Shown here piece by piece: positions 7,284-21,373 of a DNA stretch of 64,000 bases. The first letter of the stretch is position 1; the number at the start of each line of letters is the position of its first letter. The stretch comes from Vibrio gallaecicus (lineage in GTDB: Bacteria > Pseudomonadota > Gammaproteobacteria > Enterobacterales > Vibrionaceae), in the NCBI RefSeq assembly GCF_024347495.1, contig NZ_AP025490.1, positions 2,914,001 through 2,978,000 of the forward strand, given 5' to 3'. The notes below the pieces were generated by a model. The model did no database searches. It was not told where the DNA came from and saw only the letters and a program-made list of their open reading frames with translations. Both the position numbers and the translations under genes were made by a program.

Positions 7284-7904
7284 TTATGAAGCTAAGACGC
7301 CGCGCTCTTTAAGGCTTGCCACACACTGATCGACCAACTCATCTAAGGACTTATCTCCTGCAAGTAAGTCAATTTCAGGGTTTTCAGGAGCTTCATACAC
7401 AGAGCTGATACCTGTAAAATTCGGGATCTCCCCTGCTCTCGCCTTTTTATACAGCCCTTTAGGGTCTCGCTGCTCGCAGATCTCTAAAGGAGTATTCACG
7501 AATACTTCTAGAAACTCACCCTCAGGCAATAAATCACGGACTAGTTTTCGCTCAGCTTGATGAGGGGAAATAAACGCAGATAGAACAATTAGCCCAGCAT
7601 CTGCCATCAATTTAGCAAGCTCACCAATACGGCGGATATTTTCACGTCGATCTTGTTCTGAAAAACCTAAATCACTGCATAAACCATGGCGAACATTATC
7701 ACCATCAAGCAAGTAAGTATGGTAACCAAGTTGAGCTAAACGGGTTTCAAGTGCCCCAGCAACAGTAGATTTCCCTGAACCAGATAACCCTGTAAACCAA
7801 AGTACAGCTGGTTTCTGTGACTTTATATTTGCTCTAAATTCTTTATCAACCGAGTGTTGGTGCCAAACAATATTCTCATCTTTTGGCTTAAGAGAAGTCG
7901 TCAT
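7284..7904 (-). CDS. cysC: Adenylylsulfate kinase CysC
   Basis: The enzyme phosphorylates APS to PAPS, the second activation step of sulfate assimilation. The 206-residue protein has the P-loop GLSGSGKST at about residues 39-47, [19 protein letters not shown] and the FISP substrate region. Length matches the family. It is the last gene of the minus-strand operon cysD-cysN-SLC13 permease-cysC and starts 24 bases after the permease gene. It is expected to be CysB-activated with the rest. Confidence 0.97.
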
Positions 7905-7928
7905 GGTTAGTCCTTTAAGTGAACAACA

Positions 7929-9653
7929 TTAGAATGGAAAAAAGTAAGGGATCAAACTCAATACTAATACCGAATATACAATCGAAATGGGAATGCCAAT
8001 ACGCAAGTAATCCGTTATATGGTAATTGCCAACACTGTATACAAGTAGGTTAGTTTGATAACCATAAGGAGAAATAAAACTGGCACTCGCACCAAATAAT
8101 ACCGCCATAATAAACGGCATAGGATCGACGCCATAACCAACAGCCATACTGTAGCCAATTGGAAATGAAAGGGCAGCAGCAGCATTGTTTGTTACTAACT
8201 CAGTCAGTACAAGTGTCATTAAGTAAGTCGCAACCAGAGCACCAAAGACGCCCCAGCCGTTAAATGCTTCCATAAACATCAGCCCCATCCTTTCAGATAA
8301 GCCTGATGAAATCATCAATTGTGCTATAGACAGCGCAGAGCCAACAATAACGACAATATCAACAGGAAAACGTCTACGTAACTCACTAAGCTGAACCACT
8401 CCGAAAACTACCAGCAGTAATAAGAATACAGCTAAACCTTTAATAATTGGTGCAATGCCAGCAAGTGAAAAACCAATGACAGCAGCAAACCCTAACAGTA
8501 CAAAAGCAGATTTATCGCCATCAAGCTTGGCACTAGAATCTAAGTCATTCATCAGCACAAATTCTTTGTTGTGTTGCTGACGTTGCTCTTCAAAACGCTT
8601 GCCAGGTACTAAAATTAAGGTATCGCCAGCGGCTAAGGTAATATTGCCTAACCCGCCTTCAAGCCTTTCATGTCCACGGCGTATAGCCACAACCACAGCA
8701 TCGAATTTATCTCTGAACTGACTGGTTTTTAAGGTCTTATTACAAAAGCTTGCAGATGAACTGACTACGACTTCCACAAAGTTTTGACCATTCAAATGGT
8801 GCTGCCCAAACAGAGTGAGACCTTGAATTTCTTGCAGTGTCGCAACACTTTCGACATCACCACAGAACAGAAGTCGATCTCTGGCTTGTAAAACAAAATC
8901 TGGGTCGATAGATGCGGTCGTTTGCCCATCACGAATCACTTCTGCGAGAAACAGTTTTCTTAATGCTCTTAAATTATTTTCACTCACGCTACGCCCGACC
9001 AAAGGAGAACCAGGTTCAACACGTGCCTCTAGAAAATAAGGAAGATCATCTTGCGATCCATCGTCATAGGCAGGCAGTAGATAGCTTAATGGGATAAGGA
9101 TCAGCACCCCACCCACCAGCACAGCTAAGCCGATCAATGTCGGAGTGAAAAAGTTTAAGCTAGGTAAACCCACATCTTCCACAAAGCTGTTGATGATCAA
9201 GTTTGTCGACGTTCCGATCAAAGTCAGCGTACCACCTAGAATAGCGGCGTAAGATAGAGGGATTAATAATTTTGATGGTGCGTGCTGCTGATTGCGTTTG
9301 ATCGCTCCGATCAATGAAACAACAACCGCAGTATTATTGGTAAAAGAAGAAAGTAACGCTGTGGAAATACCCAACTTTGCTACAACTGTACCTAGCCGAC
9401 CTTCTGAAATATTACGGCTAACCCAGCTAATTAAGCGAGTTTTCTCCAACGCACTAGACGCAAGAATAAGAAGAATAAGAGTCAGTAAAGATGAATTGGT
9501 AAAGTTGGTCGCTAAACTCGTAAGATCAATTAAACCAGCCATAAACGCAATAAATGCGGCACTGGCAAAAATGTAACTAGGCTTAATTCGAGTGACCAGT
9601 AGGCAAGTTATGATGCCAAGCAAAATCGCTAATACAAATCCTTGTTCCCACAT
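7929..9653 (-). CDS. SLC13-type anion permease with TrkA-C domains, likely sulfate
   Basis: The 574-residue inner-membrane protein shows CitMHS/ArsB-like membrane halves at about 1-195 and 385-574, each with a conserved N-rich loop (FTNNTAVVV, ELVTNNAAAA). Between them lie two RCK_C (TrkA-C) domains at about 210-370. This architecture is shared by SLC13/DASS-like bacterial permeases. Its position between cysN and cysC makes sulfate the likely substrate, which is inference; such genes sit in the cys operon of other vibrios. The longest frame start at 9653 is supported by AAGGA on the minus strand. Confidence 0.88.
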   Translation of the reverse strand: MWEQGFVLAILLGIITCLLVTRIKPSYIFASAAFIAFMAGLIDLTSLATNFTNSSLLTLILLILASSALEKTRLISWVSRNISEGRLGTVVAKLGISTALLSSFTNNTAVVVSLIGAIKRNQQHAPSKLLIPLSYAAILGGTLTLIGTSTNLIINSFVEDVGLPSLNFFTPTLIGLAVLVGGVLILIPLSYLLPAYDDGSQDDLPYFLEARVEPGSPLVGRSVSENNLRALRKLFLAEVIRDGQTTASIDPDFVLQARDRLLFCGDVESVATLQEIQGLTLFGQHHLNGQNFVEVVVSSSASFCNKTLKTSQFRDKFDAVVVAIRRGHERLEGGLGNITLAAGDTLILVPGKRFEEQRQQHNKEFVLMNDLDSSAKLDGDKSAFVLLGFAAVIGFSLAGIAPIIKGLAVFLLLLVVFGVVQLSELRRRFPVDIVVIVGSALSIAQLMISSGLSERMGLMFMEAFNGWGVFGALVATYLMTLVLTELVTNNAAAALSFPIGYSMAVGYGVDPMPFIMAVLFGASASFISPYGYQTNLLVYSVGNYHITDYLRIGIPISIVYSVLVLSLIPYFFPF

Positions 9654-14562: not shown

Positions 14563-14758
14563 TTCTAACTGTCTTTTCATCACTCTATTTAACCCCCTAA
14601 CCTATACATCTCCTTCAGCCTTAATGAGTTCCTCATTTACCTTTTAGCCTCTACGTTCGCAAATTTAAACCCTTAGGAAATAAACACCTTAGTAAAAAAA
14701 CAATTTCAACCTGTAAGTTTTTTGTATGAGTCCCTGTCTACTATTTAACTACAATTAA

Positions 14759-14780
14759 TTGGTAACAAATTGATTACCAA
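14759..14780 (+). promoter_or_regulatory. Operator-like inverted repeat before the DedA operon
   Basis: TTGGTAA-N8-TTACCAA is a perfect 7-bp inverted repeat spanning two helical turns, 45 bases before the dedA start. A TACAAT box lies just upstream at about 14750. This fits a repressor or activator site for the seven-gene operon. A poor match to a Pho box (CTGTAAG, four bases, TTGTATG) lies at about 14711-14728. Confidence 0.5.
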
Positions 14781-14824: not shown

Positions 14825-15412
14825 ATGGGCATCACAGAGAGTATTCAAGTATTCCTAAATTCTGGCGAACAGTCAGTTGGATGGCTCATGCTCGCAATTA
14901 TTGCTTTGTCTTACTTACTTGAAGACTTAGCCATAGTCACGGCTGCTGGTCTGGCGGTGCAAAAGGTAATGCAACCTGAACTTGCTTTACTTGCGATTTT
15001 CATTGGTATTGCGACTGGTGATCTTGCTTTGTATTACTTAGGACATTCAGGTCGTTACTTCCGTGGCGTTCGCTATAAAGCGCTCACTAATCGTCACTTC
15101 CGAGCTTTGCATCAAAGGCTACATAAAAACGCCTTCATGAATTTATTCATCATTCGCTTCATTCCTGGGCTAAGAACCGTAGGTTTTACTCTTAGTGGTT
15201 TCTTCTCTGTATCCATTCCTGTCTTTCTTGCCGCAGTACTCAGTGCTACGGCAATTTGGACCTGTCTTGTTTTCTCAATCATTTATTACTTAGGTTCTTC
15301 AGCTTGGCTGCAAGCCACCCAGTACCAATGGGCTGTAATCCCTTGTGCAGTCTTACTATTGATTACTGCCAACCGTCTGCTTAATAGAACTTACTCAAGA
15401 GGGCTGTCATGA
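14825..15412 (+). CDS. DedA family inner-membrane protein
   Basis: At 195 residues with about five hydrophobic segments, it has the DedA core: LLEDLAIVTAAGL, the G...GD...Y..G segment and the conserved FIIRFIPGLRTVGFTLSGF. DedA/SNARE-assoc proteins include undecaprenyl-phosphate and phospholipid flippases and affect membrane potential. It opens the seven-gene operon and overlaps the ATP-grasp gene by four bases. Which lipid it moves is unknown; the OlsF-like enzyme at the end of the operon suggests an aminolipid, which is inference. Confidence 0.9.
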   Translation: MGITESIQVFLNSGEQSVGWLMLAIIALSYLLEDLAIVTAAGLAVQKVMQPELALLAIFIGIATGDLALYYLGHSGRYFRGVRYKALTNRHFRALHQRLHKNAFMNLFIIRFIPGLRTVGFTLSGFFSVSIPVFLAAVLSATAIWTCLVFSIIYYLGSSAWLQATQYQWAVIPCAVLLLITANRLLNRTYSRGLS

Positions 15413-16542
15413 GCTTACTAAATGCAATCCAGTGTATTCCACCTCATAAGATCAATGCGGGTATGCCACCATTAGAAGAAGATACCAAACGCAGTGTGTC
15501 GCCTTATGAGTTCCTGCCGAGTTGGTTTTTCTATACCCCTGTCTTCGTGCAAAGCTTACTCCAAGGGCTACAGCATCAAGACTTAGGGTTACCACTTATT
15601 GCTAACCCTAGTATCAAGCTCAGCGGTATGGTTGGTGAATCCAAGCACGACATTTTGAGCTTAGCTGGTAAGCAAAGCCAACCATGGATCTCCCCCTTTA
15701 TTACACTGACTAAAACGGATCTTAACTCCCAAAAGCAAGCAAAGGATGCCTATTCAGCTCTTCTACAAGCAAGCCTAGATTTTCCGATTGTCGCAAAACC
15801 GGATCTAGGCTGTCGCGGTGCTGGCGTGAAACTGATCAATAACCATGATCAACTTGAGCAATATATTGATTCATTTCCGAATCAAGCACGTTTTCTACTT
15901 CAACAAAAAGCCCCTTACCAAGCTGAAGCGGGTGTCTTTTATGTTCGCTATCCAGAGCAAAAGCAAGGGCAGATCATTTCGATCACTTTGAAGTATGCAC
16001 CAACCGTAACTGGGGATGGTGAACACACCCTTAAAGAACTGATTAAAAGTCACCCAAGAGCCGGTCAACTAAGCCACCTTTATCTACCAAGACACGTTGA
16101 TAAATTGGATTGGATTCCTCAAAACGGAGAAGAATTTCAACTCGCTTTTGCAGGAAGTCACAGCCGTGGCTCTATTTTCAGAAACGGTAACCAATTCATA
16201 TCTGAAGCACTCACCCAAAAGTTGGATGCGATTTTCAATGATTTTGGTGGCTTCTATTACGGTCGTTTAGATATCAAATTCAAAGACATCCAAACATTAA
16301 TGCAAGGCGAAGACTTTACGATTCTAGAAGTGAATGGAGCCAGTAGTGAAGCAGCGCATATCTGGGATCGAAACACACCTCTGAAAGAAATTTTTTCCAC
16401 ATTACTCCAGCAATATCGAATTTTATTTGAGATTGGTGCACAGCAAAAAAAACGTGGTCACCGCACTCCACCTCTCAAAGAGTTATTCAATGCTTGGCAA
16501 GATGAAAAACAGCTTGTACAGCAATACCCGAGCACCGATTAA
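15409..16542 (+). CDS. ATP-grasp ligase-like protein of the DedA-OlsF operon
   Basis: The 377-residue cytoplasmic protein has an ATP-grasp fold: FPIVAKPDLGCRGAGVKLI (nucleotide-binding lysine and loop, about residues 127-145), LLQQKAPYQAEAGVFYVRYP, and the C-terminal metal-binding YGRLDIKF...FTILEVNGASSEA, like the D-E-N set of D-Ala-D-Ala ligases. Such enzymes join a carboxylate to an amine or thiol with ATP. The substrate is unknown. It is translationally coupled to dedA. It could add an amino acid to a lipid made by the operon, which is speculation. Confidence 0.8.
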   Translation: MSLLNAIQCIPPHKINAGMPPLEEDTKRSVSPYEFLPSWFFYTPVFVQSLLQGLQHQDLGLPLIANPSIKLSGMVGESKHDILSLAGKQSQPWISPFITLTKTDLNSQKQAKDAYSALLQASLDFPIVAKPDLGCRGAGVKLINNHDQLEQYIDSFPNQARFLLQQKAPYQAEAGVFYVRYPEQKQGQIISITLKYAPTVTGDGEHTLKELIKSHPRAGQLSHLYLPRHVDKLDWIPQNGEEFQLAFAGSHSRGSIFRNGNQFISEALTQKLDAIFNDFGGFYYGRLDIKFKDIQTLMQGEDFTILEVNGASSEAAHIWDRNTPLKEIFSTLLQQYRILFEIGAQQKKRGHRTPPLKELFNAWQDEKQLVQQYPSTD

Positions 16543-16641
16543 GCCATTTCCCAAAGACTAATAATGCATAGATAAAGTAAAAGACGATTGATTGAACCCT
16601 TTATCTCATAAAGAAAATCAAACCAGTTTCGAGGATTTTTA

Positions 16642-17184
16642 ATGAACCAAATAAGACAGGCAACGCCGCAGATAACCATGCCTTCAAGTGTGACAGGAGC
16701 GATCGAAATTCTAAATCAAGGGTACGAATTTCTTTGCTCAATTTCAGATAGCGATTATCTATGCAGTGCTAAGCCACATATCACAAGCTCTATTGGTGAG
16801 CATACACGCCACACTCTCGATCTTTTTCATGCGCTCATCATTCAAGAAGATCTGACGGTGGATTACAACACTCGCCGAAGAGGGCATGCAGTAGAAAATG
16901 AGCGCACGATAGCTCTATCCGAGATCCAATATGTCATTAACTGGCTAAAACAGGTTGATCCAATATTACTCAGTACTGCGATTACTATTGAAACTGAAGT
17001 CTCTATGAATAACCAAGTTTTTCATTCTATTCCATCAAACATAGAACGAGAGATCACTTTTGCTGCTCTGCACGCGAATCACCACTACGCAATGATCAAA
17101 GTGATCGCGACTTTTTTAGAAATACAAACTTGCCACGCTTTTGGTTACGCCCCAACAACCGCTAGCTACCTGAGGGAGCAATAA
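16642..17184 (+). CDS. DinB/YfiT-like metal-dependent protein
   Basis: This 180-residue helical protein has the histidine arrangement of the DinB superfamily: SIGEHTRHTLDLF (His54 and His57) and ALHANHHYAMIK near residue 145. These residues would form a metal triad. Relatives include bacillithiol and mycothiol S-transferases, so thiol conjugation is possible but unproven; vibrios use glutathione. It begins 99 bases after the ATP-grasp gene with GAGG before the ATG, and the next gene follows after one base. Confidence 0.75.
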   Translation: MNQIRQATPQITMPSSVTGAIEILNQGYEFLCSISDSDYLCSAKPHITSSIGEHTRHTLDLFHALIIQEDLTVDYNTRRRGHAVENERTIALSEIQYVINWLKQVDPILLSTAITIETEVSMNNQVFHSIPSNIEREITFAALHANHHYAMIKVIATFLEIQTCHAFGYAPTTASYLREQ

Positions 17185-17185
17185 A

Positions 17186-18019
17186 ATGTGCTCAGTATCT
17201 TGGCTACTAGAAAAGAAAGGCTACCAAGTCTTTTTTAACCGTGACGAACAAAAATCACGAGAATTAGCGTTACCACCTAAAAAATACACCTTAGATGGTG
17301 TGGATGTTTTGATGCCTTTAGATCCTGTGGGTGGCGGAAGTTGGATTAGCATGAATCAATTCGGTTTGTCCTTATGTTTACTCAATAACTATCAAGGGAG
17401 GCTTGCTGCTGGTTCACTCTTAAGCCGTGGTCTTTTGCTAAAGCAACTTTCTAGCAGTTCAACTACAGAACAAGTCTCGCAACAATTTCAGCAACTTGAA
17501 ATTGAGCGATTTGCTCCATTTACGCTATTAGTTTTCTCTCCGAATCTAAGCCTATTGAACCCAAAGGTTATGGCTTACACATGGAATGGTGAGCAAATCT
17601 CAATATATGAAACTGACTCGCCTTTATTTTCATCTGGCTTTGATTTATCTAACGTCGTGCATTACCGCCAGACCATTTACCGAAAGCTGACTCAAACTGG
17701 TAAATCACAAGAAACGCTGCTTGCCTTTCATTCTCATCATCACCCTGATTTCAGCCACATGTCGACATGTATGCATAGAGAAGACGCACACACTGTTAGC
17801 TTTACGCATTTGCATTCAAATAATGGTGATTTCTCAATGTTCTACCGCCCTGGCTCACCATGTTCTTCATTAAAAGAAACATCGCAGGAACAGAGAGCAT
17901 CCAAAACAATCAAGACGTATCAAATAGCGAATCATCAAGTAATTAGTCATCAAATAACGGCTAACGAAATTAGCCAAAACCGATCCACATTTGCTCTTTC
18001 AGAAGCATTAAACACATAG
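17186..18019 (+). CDS. NRDE family protein (TANGO2-like)
   Basis: The 277-residue protein begins MCSVSWLL and contains the FFNRDEQ motif at about residues 17-23, the hallmark of the NRDE/TANGO2 family. A GGSWISMNQFGLSLCLLN segment follows, also typical. Cys2 could be an N-terminal nucleophile as in Ntn hydrolases, but activity has not been settled. Eukaryotic TANGO2 is tied to lipid and heme handling. The gene follows the DinB-like gene by a single base, so co-translation is likely. Confidence 0.8.
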   Translation: MCSVSWLLEKKGYQVFFNRDEQKSRELALPPKKYTLDGVDVLMPLDPVGGGSWISMNQFGLSLCLLNNYQGRLAAGSLLSRGLLLKQLSSSSTTEQVSQQFQQLEIERFAPFTLLVFSPNLSLLNPKVMAYTWNGEQISIYETDSPLFSSGFDLSNVVHYRQTIYRKLTQTGKSQETLLAFHSHHHPDFSHMSTCMHREDAHTVSFTHLHSNNGDFSMFYRPGSPCSSLKETSQEQRASKTIKTYQIANHQVISHQITANEISQNRSTFALSEALNT

Positions 18020-18033
18020 AACTGGAGAATATT

Positions 18034-18471
18034 ATGAGAAAACTACTGACAGCATTCTTATTACTGCTCAGCCCTTTATCTTTCGCCGATGATGAAATTT
18101 ATACCGGTATTTTCAGCAGTAAAGCCCTTGATGGCTATGACACCGTTGCCTATTTTTCACAAAACAAGCCAGTGAAAGGAAGCAAGCAATTCACAACAGA
18201 GTACAAAGGCGCAGATTGGTATTTTTCTACTGAAACCAATTTGACTTTATTTGTTAATAATCCTGAAAAATATGCTCCTCAATATGGTGGCTATTGTGCA
18301 TGGGCAGTTTCAGCTAAAAATGACTTTGCACCAGGAGATCCATTGCAGTGGAGCATAGTGAACAACAAGTTGTATCTCAATTATGACCAGGACATTAAAA
18401 ACCTTTGGGAAACAAAAAGAGACGCACACATTCAGCAAGCCGATAAAAATTGGCCACAGCTAATCAATTAA
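18034..18471 (+). CDS. Exported YHS-domain protein
   Basis: The 145-residue protein has a signal peptide (MRKLLTAFLLLLSPLSFA, cleavage near residue 18). The YHS-type domain shows GYDTVAYF....PVKG...F...Y.GA.W.FS...N...F..NPEKYAP.YGGYCAWAVS, then a C-terminal W......I..ADKNWP segment. YHS domains are thought to bind metals, but the residues needed are not defined here. Periplasmic location is predicted. It lies 14 bases after the NRDE gene. Confidence 0.85.
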   Translation: MRKLLTAFLLLLSPLSFADDEIYTGIFSSKALDGYDTVAYFSQNKPVKGSKQFTTEYKGADWYFSTETNLTLFVNNPEKYAPQYGGYCAWAVSAKNDFAPGDPLQWSIVNNKLYLNYDQDIKNLWETKRDAHIQQADKNWPQLIN

Positions 18472-18481
18472 GGAATTCACT

Positions 18482-18934
18482 ATGACATTCGCTCCACTTA
18501 AACATATTCCTTCAGCATTTATTGCGTTTGTTTTTATTCAGTCGCTATTTTTTAAGTTCACAGGCTCATATGAGACTGACCATATATTTGGAACTCTAGG
18601 TGAATGGTCTGGGCTTGATTGGTTTGGATCAATCGGTGGGTATGTGATTGGAATTGCTGAGCTAATTGCCGCCTTTCTACTTTTCAGCAGGTTTCATGGC
18701 ATGGGAGCACTCATGAGTGTTGGCATCATGAGTGGCGCTATTTTCTTCCACCTATTTACGCCTCTCGGTATCCAAATGCCTGAATTTAATGCGACAGGTG
18801 AAATTATCGGATACGACGGTGGCTTGTTATTTGGAATGGCATGTCTGGTTTGGCTATGCGGTGCATTTCTTACAGTAAAAGATCTAAAAAATCAAAATGG
18901 TTTTCTTTATAACTTCATTAATAAGGCAGAATAA
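18482..18934 (+). CDS. DoxX-like small membrane protein
   Basis: The 150-residue protein has four hydrophobic segments (about residues 10-28, 52-70, 73-92, 112-132), with a FKFTG motif after the first and IGIAELIAAFLLF in the second, as in DoxX/DoxD-like proteins. These proteins often accompany redox enzymes at the inner membrane, but the reaction is unknown. It lies ten bases after the YHS gene and two before the lipid synthase gene. Confidence 0.75.
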   Translation: MTFAPLKHIPSAFIAFVFIQSLFFKFTGSYETDHIFGTLGEWSGLDWFGSIGGYVIGIAELIAAFLLFSRFHGMGALMSVGIMSGAIFFHLFTPLGIQMPEFNATGEIIGYDGGLLFGMACLVWLCGAFLTVKDLKNQNGFLYNFINKAE

Positions 18935-18936
18935 TT

Positions 18937-20691
18937 ATGATTGATAGTCCTTTTCGTTTACCTCGTTATACACCTTTCGGTTTAGGTGAATCTGTTGTCG
19001 AGTGGGCAACAGGGCTATCTAAGCTTGATCAAATATATCAACAGCGCCCAGCCGAGCTATCGAGCTTTGAATTCATGCATCATACTTTGTCTGCGTTAAA
19101 TATTGACTACAGTATTGCAGCGGGATCAACGACTAATATCCCAACAGAAGGTCCTGTCGTTATTGTGGCTAACCATCCTTTAGGGGCAATTGAAGGAGTA
19201 ATCCTCGCCGATCTAGTTGGATCAATACGCCAAGATGTTAAGGTGCTTGCTAATGAATTATTGAAGCGCTTACCTGAACTCGATGAGCTATTTATCGGTG
19301 TTGATGTCTTTAATAACAAGCAAGCTAAGCAAACCAATGCAAAAGCTATCCGAGATGCCAATCATCACTTAGCTGATGGTGGTGTGCTTATTGTCTTTCC
19401 TGCTGGTGAGGTATCAAGTTATTCAAAGGAAGATAGAACTCTGACCGATATCAAGTGGAGTAAGTCTGTTGCTAAGTTTGTTAAACGCCATCAAGCAGCA
19501 ACAGTGCCAATCTTCATCAACGGAAAAAATAGCGAACTATTTTACCAAGCCGGTCGTGTGCACCCTTTGCTTAGAACAGCGCTCCTCGGTCGAGAGTTAC
19601 TGAATAAGCGGGCTTCTACAATTTCCATCTCTATTGGTTCTTCGATTCCTTATTCTGAAATTAAATCTTTCGAACAAGATATGGATATCGTTAATTACCT
19701 TCGTTTAAATACCTATTTAATGAGCCAAGAAGATGACCAATTTTCAGAAAGCACCTCAAACCCATTATTTGATACTTCAATAATTTCTGCCATCGACCCT
19801 GTACTACTCAGTAAAGAGATCGCATCGATTCCAAGCGAAATGAAGCTTTTAGAGCAAGGCGTCTTTGAAGTGTATTGTACACCGAGCCAAGTCATACCTA
19901 ACCTAATGCAAGAGATTGGCAGAGTAAGAGAAGAGAGTTTTAGAGAAGTGGGAGAAGGCAGCGGTCTCGCCTGTGATTTGGATGAATATGATCTGTATTA
20001 CAATCAACTCTTTGTTTGGAATACCGAAAAATCAGAACTAGTAGGCGCGTATCGATTAGGTTTAGTAGACGAGCTTATCTCACAGCAAGGTTTAAACCAC
20101 CTCTACTCGCGTAGCTTATTCAACTACAATCAAGAGTTTATCGATACTTTAGATCACAGCATTGAGTTAGGTAGATCGGTTGTCAGTAAAGCCTATCAGA
20201 AGAACCTCAACTCACTACTATTGCTATGGAAAGGCATTGCGACATTTGTTGCTCGTAACCCGAAATACACGCACTTATTTGGTCCTGTTAGCATCAGTAA
20301 TGATTACAGCCACACAGCCCGCTTACTCATTGCGACTACTTTATCTATACATCATTACGATGAAGAAAAGGCAAATTTAGTCAGCCCACTCTCTCCATTG
20401 AGTACTAACAAGAAAGTTTTTTGGCAAAACCACTTATTGTCATCACTTGCCAGCGTGCCTTTATTATCGAAAGTACTTTCTCGTATGGAACAAGGAAAAG
20501 GCTTACCTGTCTTACTGAGGCAGTATTTAGGCATGAATGGAAAGCTGGTTTGTTTTAACGTCGACCCCGCATTTAACGATGCTTTAGACGGTTTAATTGT
20601 CGTGAACCTCCCCAAAGTACCACTTAAAACCTTAGGCAAGTATATGGGAAGAGGCAAAGCAGAAGCCTACATCAACAATCACTTAACCTAA
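18937..20691 (+). CDS. olsF: OlsF-like bifunctional ornithine lipid synthase
   Basis: The 584-residue protein joins two acyltransferase domains. The N-terminal half is PlsC-like: VANHPLGAIEGVIL (about residues 70-83) and FPAGEVSSY (about 154-162). The C-terminal half is GNAT-like (Acetyltransf_5, once called hemolysin): FREVGEG...D.DEYD..Y.QLFVWN, LVGAYRLG and ELGRSVVSKAYQ. OlsF of Serratia has this layout; the GNAT part N-acylates ornithine and the PlsC part adds the second acyl chain. A V. cholerae homologue makes ornithine lipid, as I recall. It is the last gene of the operon. Confidence 0.8.
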   Translation: MIDSPFRLPRYTPFGLGESVVEWATGLSKLDQIYQQRPAELSSFEFMHHTLSALNIDYSIAAGSTTNIPTEGPVVIVANHPLGAIEGVILADLVGSIRQDVKVLANELLKRLPELDELFIGVDVFNNKQAKQTNAKAIRDANHHLADGGVLIVFPAGEVSSYSKEDRTLTDIKWSKSVAKFVKRHQAATVPIFINGKNSELFYQAGRVHPLLRTALLGRELLNKRASTISISIGSSIPYSEIKSFEQDMDIVNYLRLNTYLMSQEDDQFSESTSNPLFDTSIISAIDPVLLSKEIASIPSEMKLLEQGVFEVYCTPSQVIPNLMQEIGRVREESFREVGEGSGLACDLDEYDLYYNQLFVWNTEKSELVGAYRLGLVDELISQQGLNHLYSRSLFNYNQEFIDTLDHSIELGRSVVSKAYQKNLNSLLLLWKGIATFVARNPKYTHLFGPVSISNDYSHTARLLIATTLSIHHYDEEKANLVSPLSPLSTNKKVFWQNHLLSSLASVPLLSKVLSRMEQGKGLPVLLRQYLGMNGKLVCFNVDPAFNDALDGLIVVNLPKVPLKTLGKYMGRGKAEAYINNHLT

Positions 20692-20795: not shown

Positions 20796-20803
20796 TGATA
20801 CAC

Positions 20804-21373
20804 ATGCATTCAGCGTTTATTGAACAACTAAAAAACTATAACTTTAGTGATCAAGAGATAGAGTCTCTTATCTCTGTCGCTAAATCTATAGAGCTTCCTA
20901 CACGACATATTTTAGTGAACCAAGGAGAAATGGCAGACTCCATTTACTTTATACTTGAAGGGTTGTGCCATGCTTGTTACCTAACCGAGGAAGGAAAACA
21001 GTATAGTAAAGAGTTCTACTGGGAGCATGATTGGGTGATAGGCTTCGAAAGCTTAATCAAACCTCAGCCTTCTCCGTACTTACTTGAAACCCTCACTCCT
21101 ATTGCTTTGCTAGAAATCCCAATGAAATGGCTTGTCGAATGGCGAGAGCAAAATAATCCTCTTTACCTTAAGTTGCTTGAGACACAATTAATGTATAAAG
21201 AGAACAAAGAGCGCTTCATGCTGCTTTATACACCAGAACAACGCTACCAATTATTTTGTGAACATTATCCTGACCTTTTGATGCGACTTAATGACAACCA
21301 AGTTGCGGCATATTTAGGGATCACAGCAATCAGCCTAAGCAGAATTAAAACGAGAATAGCGGATAACTCATAA
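20804..21373 (+). CDS. Crp/Fnr-like transcription regulator
   Basis: From the chosen ATG (189 residues) the protein has a cyclic-nucleotide-binding-type beta barrel (about residues 15-115: ILVNQGEMADSIYFILEGLC...YWEHDWVIG) and a C-terminal helix-turn-helix (NDNQVAAYLGITAISLSRIKTRI). The barrel lacks the R-T-S cAMP set of Crp and the cysteines of Fnr, so the ligand is unknown. An in-frame GTG lies at 20795, but AGGTGAT before 20804 decides. It follows the olsF operon by 112 bases and might regulate it. Confidence 0.85.
   Translation: MHSAFIEQLKNYNFSDQEIESLISVAKSIELPTRHILVNQGEMADSIYFILEGLCHACYLTEEGKQYSKEFYWEHDWVIGFESLIKPQPSPYLLETLTPIALLEIPMKWLVEWREQNNPLYLKLLETQLMYKENKERFMLLYTPEQRYQLFCEHYPDLLMRLNDNQVAAYLGITAISLSRIKTRIADNS

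Follow-up and report, generated by a model that had tools for sequence, protein, structure and literature searches.

An ATP-grasp protein family that accompanies ornithine-lipid synthesis, and its possible partnership with DedA in a likely operon of Vibrio gallaecicus

Seven genes on the plus strand of the Vibrio gallaecicus genome, at positions 14825-20691 of the 64,000-nucleotide stretch of contig NZ_AP025490.1 analysed here (the window, contig positions 2,914,001-2,978,000), are designated A to G and encode a DedA membrane protein, an ATP-grasp protein, DinB, NRDE and YHS proteins, a DoxX/MauE-like membrane protein and an OlsF-like synthase of ornithine lipids (OLs). The new finding is that the ATP-grasp family accompanies OL synthesis across changes in gene order and chemistry. 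We propose, tentatively and on a balance that falls just short of even, that the ATP-grasp protein joins an amino-acid-like group to OL and that DedA then moves the product across the inner membrane. The genes are as follows.

14825..15412, plus strand: A, DedA/VTT membrane protein, 195 residues, predicted lipid translocator (PF09335)
15409..16542, plus strand: B, ATP-grasp protein, 377 residues, predicted membrane-surface carboxylate-amine ligase
16642..17184, plus strand: C, DinB-fold protein, 180 residues, likely metal site (predicted structure)
17186..18019, plus strand: D, NRDE/TANGO2-family protein, 277 residues, likely N-terminal-cysteine hydrolase fold (PF05742)
18034..18471, plus strand: E, YHS-domain protein, 145 residues, probably exported (NF041384, PF04945)
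18482..18934, plus strand: F, DoxX/MauE-like membrane protein, 150 residues (Pfam matches below cut-off)
18937..20691, plus strand: G, OlsF-family bifunctional ornithine-lipid synthase, 584 residues (PF19576 and PF13444)

The initial annotation had placed seven same-strand genes here, and our open reading frame calls reproduce its coordinates and all of its spacings, which from A to G are -4, 99, 1, 14, 10 and 2 bases. Proteins A, D, E and G score above curated cut-offs, B and F below them, and C has no DinB Pfam match. The conserved same-strand run likely constitutes an operon.

The ATP-grasp profile found matches in 7 of 369 class-level genomes (1e-20) and in 14 of 398 phylum-level genomes (1e-15), with the window's own genome counted in both. 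Reading of the gene neighbourhoods revealed six arrangements in which the ATP-grasp gene adjoins OL synthase genes. The first is the order A-B-C-D-E-(F)-G of Vibrionaceae and Marinomonas. In the second, the order is B-G-C-D-E (L051, L052), B-G-C-D followed by the end of the contig (L141) or B-G-C (L053). The third, C-D-B-OlsB-OlsA-E (L142, L143), and the fourth, C-B-OlsB-OlsA (L191), contain split synthase genes; the fifth consists of OlsF beside a DedA::ATP-grasp fusion in Mariprofundus (L150) and the sixth of ATP-grasp-OlsB-LplT in Variovorax (L199). Among the NCBIfam models OlsB (141-179 bits) and OlsA (160-172 bits) are the best matches of the split genes but score below their cut-offs. 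In a Pfam check that covered L142, L143 and L191, the split OlsB and OlsA proteins exceed the cut-offs. The L199 transporter scores 448 as LplT against a cut-off of 297. Since a two-protein synthase replaces the one-protein synthase beside the same ATP-grasp, the ATP-grasp protein appears to follow the lipid and not merely the gene, and in the sequence comparisons this swap is the strongest sign that it does so.

Among the relatives, an OlsF- or OlsB-type match is present in all 25 genomes with the ATP-grasp and in 21 of 36 without it (p 8e-5, kinship uncorrected); in the phylum sample the corresponding numbers are 14 of 14 ATP-grasp genomes versus 245 of 398 genomes overall (p 1e-3, again uncorrected for kinship). 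All nine distant ATP-grasp genomes, four of which are also among the 14, possess an OL-type acyltransferase. These observations bear on an alternative according to which the operon makes plain OL only and the ATP-grasp protein, DedA and the accessory proteins serve other envelope tasks; DedA, for example, would recycle undecaprenyl phosphate and the ATP-grasp protein would build a small peptide, and all of these proteins would share with OlsF only its regulation by low salinity and quorum sensing. We consider this alternative rather unlikely. Co-regulation alone hardly explains the repeated linkage of the ATP-grasp gene to OlsF, to split OlsB/OlsA and to OlsB, and an OL-type acyltransferase was present in every ATP-grasp genome that was searched for one.

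Within the Vibrionaceae and Marinomonas the gene order is conserved. When GTDB genomes were searched with the ATP-grasp profile, 202 relatives were detected, and the best-scoring 80 of them make up a sample biased to close kin; some of these 80 named loci belong to the same genomes as 20 Vibrio loci that were fetched separately (L031-L050). The 80 loci span Vibrio, Aliivibrio, Photobacterium, Grimontia, Enterovibrio and Marinomonas. By local BLAST, A-B-C-D-E occur in order in 79 of them and G terminates 78, whereas F, the least conserved member, was detected in 50. The gene set is retained in 19 of the 20 fetched Vibrio loci; 7 of these lack F, and one (L049) lacks C and D. The recurrence of the gene order is far beyond chance, and the conservation across Vibrionaceae that the initial annotation had left to be established was thus found. 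Flanking cysD, 5'-nucleotidase, CRP-like, GNAT and EamA genes occur, among L031-L050, only in L031-L038, from which it follows that the block has moved as a unit. In a genome of another family of the order (L059, 8935-12130), an OlsF-like gene faces a convergent NRDE-DinB pair.

The assignment of G as an OL synthase is strong. Its two domains score well above their cut-offs (N-terminal Acyltransf_2 75.2 versus 27 bits, C-terminal Acetyltransf_5 71 versus 22.4 bits), as is characteristic of OlsF, and PF13444 has one match in the window genome. The protein is 67% identical over 579 residues to the ortholog of Vibrio cholerae VCA0646, and this orthology to a proven OL synthase supports the initial annotation of G as OlsF-like. 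The published primer site for VCA0646, minus the engineered start codon, is present in locus L043 and that for VC0489 in L057, so that genome G034, in which both lie, is V. cholerae or nearly so. The NCBIfam OlsF equivalog cut-off of 620 bits is exceeded by the protein of L060 (836) but not by the window protein (427), the VCA0646 type (434) or the VC0489 type (419). As the last two are proven synthases, the cut-off excludes real members, and we rejected the idea that the low score of the window protein indicates another substrate.

OlsF-type matches were found in 46 of 61 relatives (E 1e-3). Compared with the window protein, the OlsFs of the genus fall mostly into two classes, which are 63-85% (operon type) and 52-56% identical (mostly stand-alone); the OlsF of G014 is only 53% identical yet lies within the operon, and in other families OlsF-type matches show greater divergence. 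The stand-alone VC0489 type shares the two-domain structure with the operon type, and its four aligned members are 53-56% identical to the window protein, but it lacks partner genes in the four loci examined. Its synthesis depends on PhoB and is induced by phosphate limitation (PMC12186959). In a tree of 41 sequences the four stand-alone Vibrio OlsFs are placed among the operon-type sequences, beside Grimontia and Enterovibrio; with long branches, a midpoint root and SH-aLRT values of 81-85 this placement is not strong. The PhoB-type stand-alone OlsF may have descended from such an operon.

The ATP-grasp protein is recognisable by Pfam yet scores below every listed cut-off. Its nearest folds are the carboxylate-amine ligases CphA1, LysX/ArgX and RimK, which join amino acids. 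Many database records call it a D-alanine--D-alanine ligase, a name that the scores do not support (Dala_Dala_lig_C 15.7 versus 24; NCBIfam Ddl models 12-14 versus 489-505), and it does not reach the curated full-length cut-off of cyanophycin synthetase, a model of 862 positions. With cyanophycin synthetase, RimK, LysX/ArgX and Ddl it shares the predicted fold and the ATP-grasp residues; it differs from them in a sequence far under every family cut-off and in being a single module with a hydrophobic N-terminal helix of its own, by which it is probably docked on the membrane. In one relative (L032, 4508-6263, genome G011) the gene is present as two open frames approximately 630 bases apart.

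The kinship of fold with amino acid ligases would also suit a second alternative, in which the head group is made first: the ATP-grasp protein would synthesize an ornithine dipeptide or amide that OlsF then acylates to a lipo-dipeptide, and OL would result only when OlsF acts alone on ornithine. This sequence of events is improbable in our estimation, since the hydrophobic N-terminal helix and the fusion to DedA described below suggest a membrane-bound lipid substrate.

The VTT domain (PF09335) of DedA scores 49.6 bits against a cut-off of 33.9, and the sequence R[FY]xPGxR was found in all 99 DedA proteins of operon loci (some genomes counted twice). The VTT domain and the two arginines at the second re-entrant tip place the protein in the DedA superfamily; an assignment as the undecaprenyl-phosphate transporter UptA was discarded (NCBIfam 17.3 versus 250 bits). 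In L150 a single protein of 574 residues combines an N-terminal VTT domain (43.4 versus 33.9 bits) with the ATP-grasp. As a database query it retrieved at least 1,145 relatives at 1e-20; among the 120 listed, 117 have PF09335 and every one is matched by the profiles of DedA and ATP-grasp alike. The names listed include Mariprofundus, Prolixibacter, Bacteroidales and a Burkholderiales metagenome-assembled genome. The fusion also occurs on Azospirillum plasmids, and in the Mariprofundus family the query's own genome was the only one of 61 to contain it. DedA directly precedes the ATP-grasp in L147, L148, L149, L190 and L200, and in Paracoccus a VTT gene is next but one to it. Judged by gene neighbourhoods, the ATP-grasp is repeatedly tied to DedA on the one hand and to OL synthesis on the other, and the two associations come together in the Vibrio operon and in Mariprofundus.

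From these properties a sequence of reactions can be envisaged. OlsF, as deduced from VCA0646, would carry out the N-acylation of ornithine, using a 3-hydroxy acyl chain, and its O-acylation. The ATP-grasp protein would activate a carboxylate with ATP and form an amide on the free carboxylate or the side-chain amine of OL. DedA would translocate OL or the modified OL. The DinB, NRDE, YHS and DoxX proteins may act as thiol, metal or redox accessories or in the turnover of the ligase product, NRDE being a likely cysteine amidase of the N-terminal nucleophile (Ntn) type. Ligase action on OL followed by flipping through DedA is plausible and, among the explanations of the gene sequences, the best supported. 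It was the guess of the initial annotation that the ATP-grasp adds to the aminolipid and DedA flips it; the six OL-gene arrangements, the DedA fusion and the ligase fold strengthen that guess, and the formation of plain OL by VCA0646 alone detracts from it.

The latter is one of several observations that weigh against the proposed ligase-DedA pathway. VCA0646 alone yields OL in E. coli, as determined by thin-layer chromatography and by liquid chromatography with tandem mass spectrometry, and has its own salt-responsive promoter (PMC12186959), both of which agree with an operon that makes plain OL only. In the portion of that paper available, OL and no modified form is reported for V. cholerae, which argues against a strict form of the proposal. 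The arginine pair of DedA matches in spacing Arg130/Arg136, which have been ascribed to undecaprenyl-phosphate flippases (PMC10127716); the operon DedAs keep an R-x-x-P-G-x-R tip that would fit a role in undecaprenyl-phosphate recycling. DedA::ATP-grasp fusions and pairs are widespread and exist also without nearby OL genes. Conversely, no DedA is nearby in the B-G-C-D, split-OlsB/OlsA and Variovorax loci, and only one of the nine distant loci with an adjoining OL gene, the L150 fusion, has a local DedA.

There are also ATP-grasp genes without an adjoining OL gene, namely in L144, L145, L146 (a partial ATP-grasp match), L147, L148 (GC-rich, its frames read by profile only), L149 and L190 and, on plasmids, in Azospirillum (L195), Komagataeibacter (L196, L197), Paracoccus (L198, L201) and Salinivibrio (L200), these four genera being represented by plasmid records only. 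With one locus counted per genus for the plasmid groups, 11 distant loci lack and 9 have an adjoining OL gene. Each of the seven genomes searched (G172, G085, G202, G703, G744, G717 and G022) carries an OlsB- or OlsF-type acyltransferase elsewhere; in the five of them checked on NCBIfam, OlsB was the best match, in one case above the cut-off. Small membrane proteins of L051 (13550-13951) and L144 (10503-10919) look alike by eye but, at a BLASTP E value of 0.57, are not classed as homologs. In Variovorax (L199, 6098-11086) the ATP-grasp, OlsB-like and LplT genes are accompanied by those of a haem-oxygenase-like iron protein (PF14518) and a methyltransferase. On the Komagataeibacter plasmids (L196, with L197 similar) an iron-containing redox enzyme, a methyltransferase and the ATP-grasp are adjacent by annotation, near arsenic-resistance genes.

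The partner genes and OlsF also part company among closer relatives. In G031, a close relative, A-F are lost and G is kept in the same place (L038, 7832-8315), and no ATP-grasp or DinB match was found anywhere in its genome; the retention of OlsF alone would fit an operon for plain OL. G031 offers a natural test strain for the role of the partner genes. The initial annotation regarded the occurrence of the six partner genes without olsF in unrelated settings as incompatible with its proposal. Partners without a local OlsF do occur in two strains of Marinomonas spartinae (A-F), in G022 (A-E) and in Salinivibrio (A-D); both M. spartinae strains and G022 keep OlsF elsewhere in the genome.

Less certain is the part played in the OL pathway by DinB, NRDE, YHS and DoxX. 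An AlphaFold model of the DinB protein (pLDDT 95.3) has YfiT, DinB, BstA, mycothiol S-transferase and ClbS as Foldseek neighbours with probabilities of 0.99-1.00; the best E value is 2.1e-3, none being under 1e-3, and TM scores reach 0.71. His54, His57, His144, His147 and His148 are invariant in 44 aligned sequences. There is no meaningful Pfam match to the protein itself, and a relative in L193 passes PF05163. The model places it in the DinB/YfiT superfamily, with a four-helix fold and a likely histidine metal site. The NRDE protein exceeds the cut-off of PF05742 (39.1 versus 22.6 bits), and solved TANGO2 chains are found with its profile at 1e-5. Cys2, Asn18, Arg19, Asp20 and Glu21 are invariant in 10 of 10 sequences; the strict pattern is found in 97 of 100, and the other three also start with MC and contain NRDE. 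With Cys2 and the N-R-D-E motif it has the features of the TANGO2/NRDE cysteine Ntn-hydrolases. Cys2, Asn18, Arg19 and Asp20 correspond to Cys2, Asn25, Arg26 and Asp27 of TANGO2 (PMC13044924), and conservation of these four residues makes an amidase-like role plausible; counterparts of TANGO2 Asn157 and Lys166, including the oxyanion Asn, were not located in the NRDE protein.

The YHS protein scores 160.1 bits with NF041384, the NCBIfam model for YHS (seleno)proteins (cut-off 70), and exceeds the cut-off of PF04945. The YGGxCA motif is present in 100 of 101 sequences, and by its position and an identity of 61% the protein is orthologous to VCA0647. A putative signal peptide, judged by eye, indicates that it is probably exported. 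Protein F stays below the cut-offs of MauE (19.1 versus 27 bits) and DoxX_2 (16.7 versus 26.3 bits) and is therefore named only DoxX/MauE-like.

C, D, E and F recur around two other ATP-grasps in L192 and L193 without an OL gene, a further point against a specific link to the lipid. These clusters (L192, 9128-13043, with C and D at 7673-9093; L193, 3441-8891) encode YHS, DoxX, two ATP-grasps, a membrane protein, DinB and NRDE. One ATP-grasp is weakly Ddl-like and the other cyanophycin-synthetase-like (139-165 bits); the membrane protein exceeds the Pfam cut-off of MFS in L193 and has no Pfam match in L192. The second ATP-grasp has relatives in Endozoicomonas, Psychromonas and Neptunomonas. The cluster looks like a peptide-making cousin of the operon, and the presence of C-F beside other ATP-grasps suggests that they serve ATP-grasp products more generally. 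Two ATP-grasps with a transporter-like protein and DinB, NRDE, YHS and DoxX but no acyltransferase, as for a soluble peptide, would also be in line with synthesis of the ornithine head group before acylation.

In V. cholerae the locus has been studied from two sides. L043 has DedA, ATP-grasp, DinB, NRDE, YHS and OlsF-like genes in the same order as the window; the DoxX gene was not detected there, and the two studies treat four genes (PMC12186959, PMC11573629). In the first, VCA0646, the second OlsF of the species, is the last gene of a putative four-gene operon, VCA0649-0646, and forms OL at low salinity (PMC12186959). In the second, HapR activates vca0646-0649, designated a cell-death operon, whose functions are stated by the authors to be unknown (PMC11573629). 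By term search, PMC12186959 does not mention quorum sensing, HapR or cell death, PMC11573629 does not mention lipid or ornithine, and the tags VCA0650 and VCA0651 (ATP-grasp and DedA) are absent from both. Residual OL in vesicles has been credited to vca0646 (PMC13157583). In a table of PMC7600106, VCA0650-1, VCA0648-9 and VCA0646-7 drop together in an iurV mutant (log2 -2.9, -2.1 and -2.0), which supports a single unit that includes the ATP-grasp, there named D-alanine-D-alanine ligase, and DedA.

Over-expression of vca0646 and vca0647 raises cell death in the absence of the type VI secretion system (PMC11573629). The operon might accordingly be taken for a quorum-sensing-controlled self-killing module in which OlsF and the exported YHS protein jointly damage the envelope, but this is very improbable: deletion of the four genes had no effect and vca0648/0649 were dispensable (PMC11573629), none of the seven proteins matches any PADLOC anti-phage defence model at 1e-3, and an excess of OL synthase together with an exported protein could harm the cell for trivial reasons.

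Upstream of the DedA gene, a block present in one copy in the window is aligned with nine relatives.

14712..14740, plus strand: promoter-like block TGTAAGTTTT-N13-TGTCTA (alignment of the window and nine relatives)

We take this block to resemble a promoter of extracytoplasmic function (ECF) sigma factors. A regulon of that kind was abandoned, since three genomes scanned with a tolerance of 2 mismatches contained 5, 0 and 8 matches, as compared with 6, 3 and 6 in the reversed control (13 versus 15 in total), the V. cholerae-type genome having none. An ECF sigma gene is listed together with the operon in PMC7600106. An inverted repeat, TTGGTAA-N8-TTACCAA, at 14759-14780 was dismissed as an operator because its core was found in the window alone among 100 upstream regions; a near form is present in the closest relative, L075. 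A CRP-like gene (20801-21373) directly follows OlsF, in the same place among the fetched Vibrio loci only in L031-L038, and is a possible local regulator.

The predicted logic, modification of the head group at the inner leaflet followed by translocation, both by a single protein in the case of the DedA::ATP-grasp fusion, would be analogous to that of MprF and of LpiA-AcvB, systems for the aminoacylation, flipping and hydrolysis of lipids. In Agrobacterium the hydrolase gene acvB adjoins lpiA (PMC11980842, PMC13135905), an arrangement comparable to the proximity of the NRDE and ligase genes here, and no relationship between AcvB and NRDE is claimed. MprF and LpiA depend on aminoacyl-tRNA and have a flippase fold of their own, whereas here an ATP-grasp ligase and DedA would act, with OL as the proposed substrate. 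None of the seven proteins has an MprF-related Pfam or NCBIfam match at E 1; without the tRNA-dependent aminoacyl-lipid synthase domain and the MprF flippase the operon was not classed as MprF, and the analogy is functional alone. In a bolder version, possible but more doubtful than the ligase reaction with DedA translocation itself, the operon is a tRNA-independent counterpart of MprF in which an ATP-grasp lipid ligase extends the OL head group and passes the product to a DedA that is often fused to it, and the V. cholerae cell-death operon would serve the remodelling of aminolipids.

About half of the sequenced bacterial species are able to form OLs (PMC12186959), and their transport across the inner membrane seems to be an open question. 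In the accessible parts of the literature naming both ornithine lipid and flippase no candidate for an inner-membrane OL flippase was found, no literature naming both ornithine lipid and DedA was found, and in the available text of a 2024 review of aminolipids the words flippase and transport occur zero times (PMC11631085). The conserved pair of ligase and DedA beside OL synthases provides a concrete candidate for OL translocation. One locus joins two findings hitherto unconnected, the low-salinity OL synthase and the quorum-sensing cell-death operon. If the proposal is correct, a tRNA-independent MprF-like system would reach from Mariprofundus to Azospirillum and Bacteroidota, and in Vibrio an OL ligase-DedA system would be under the control of quorum sensing and salinity.

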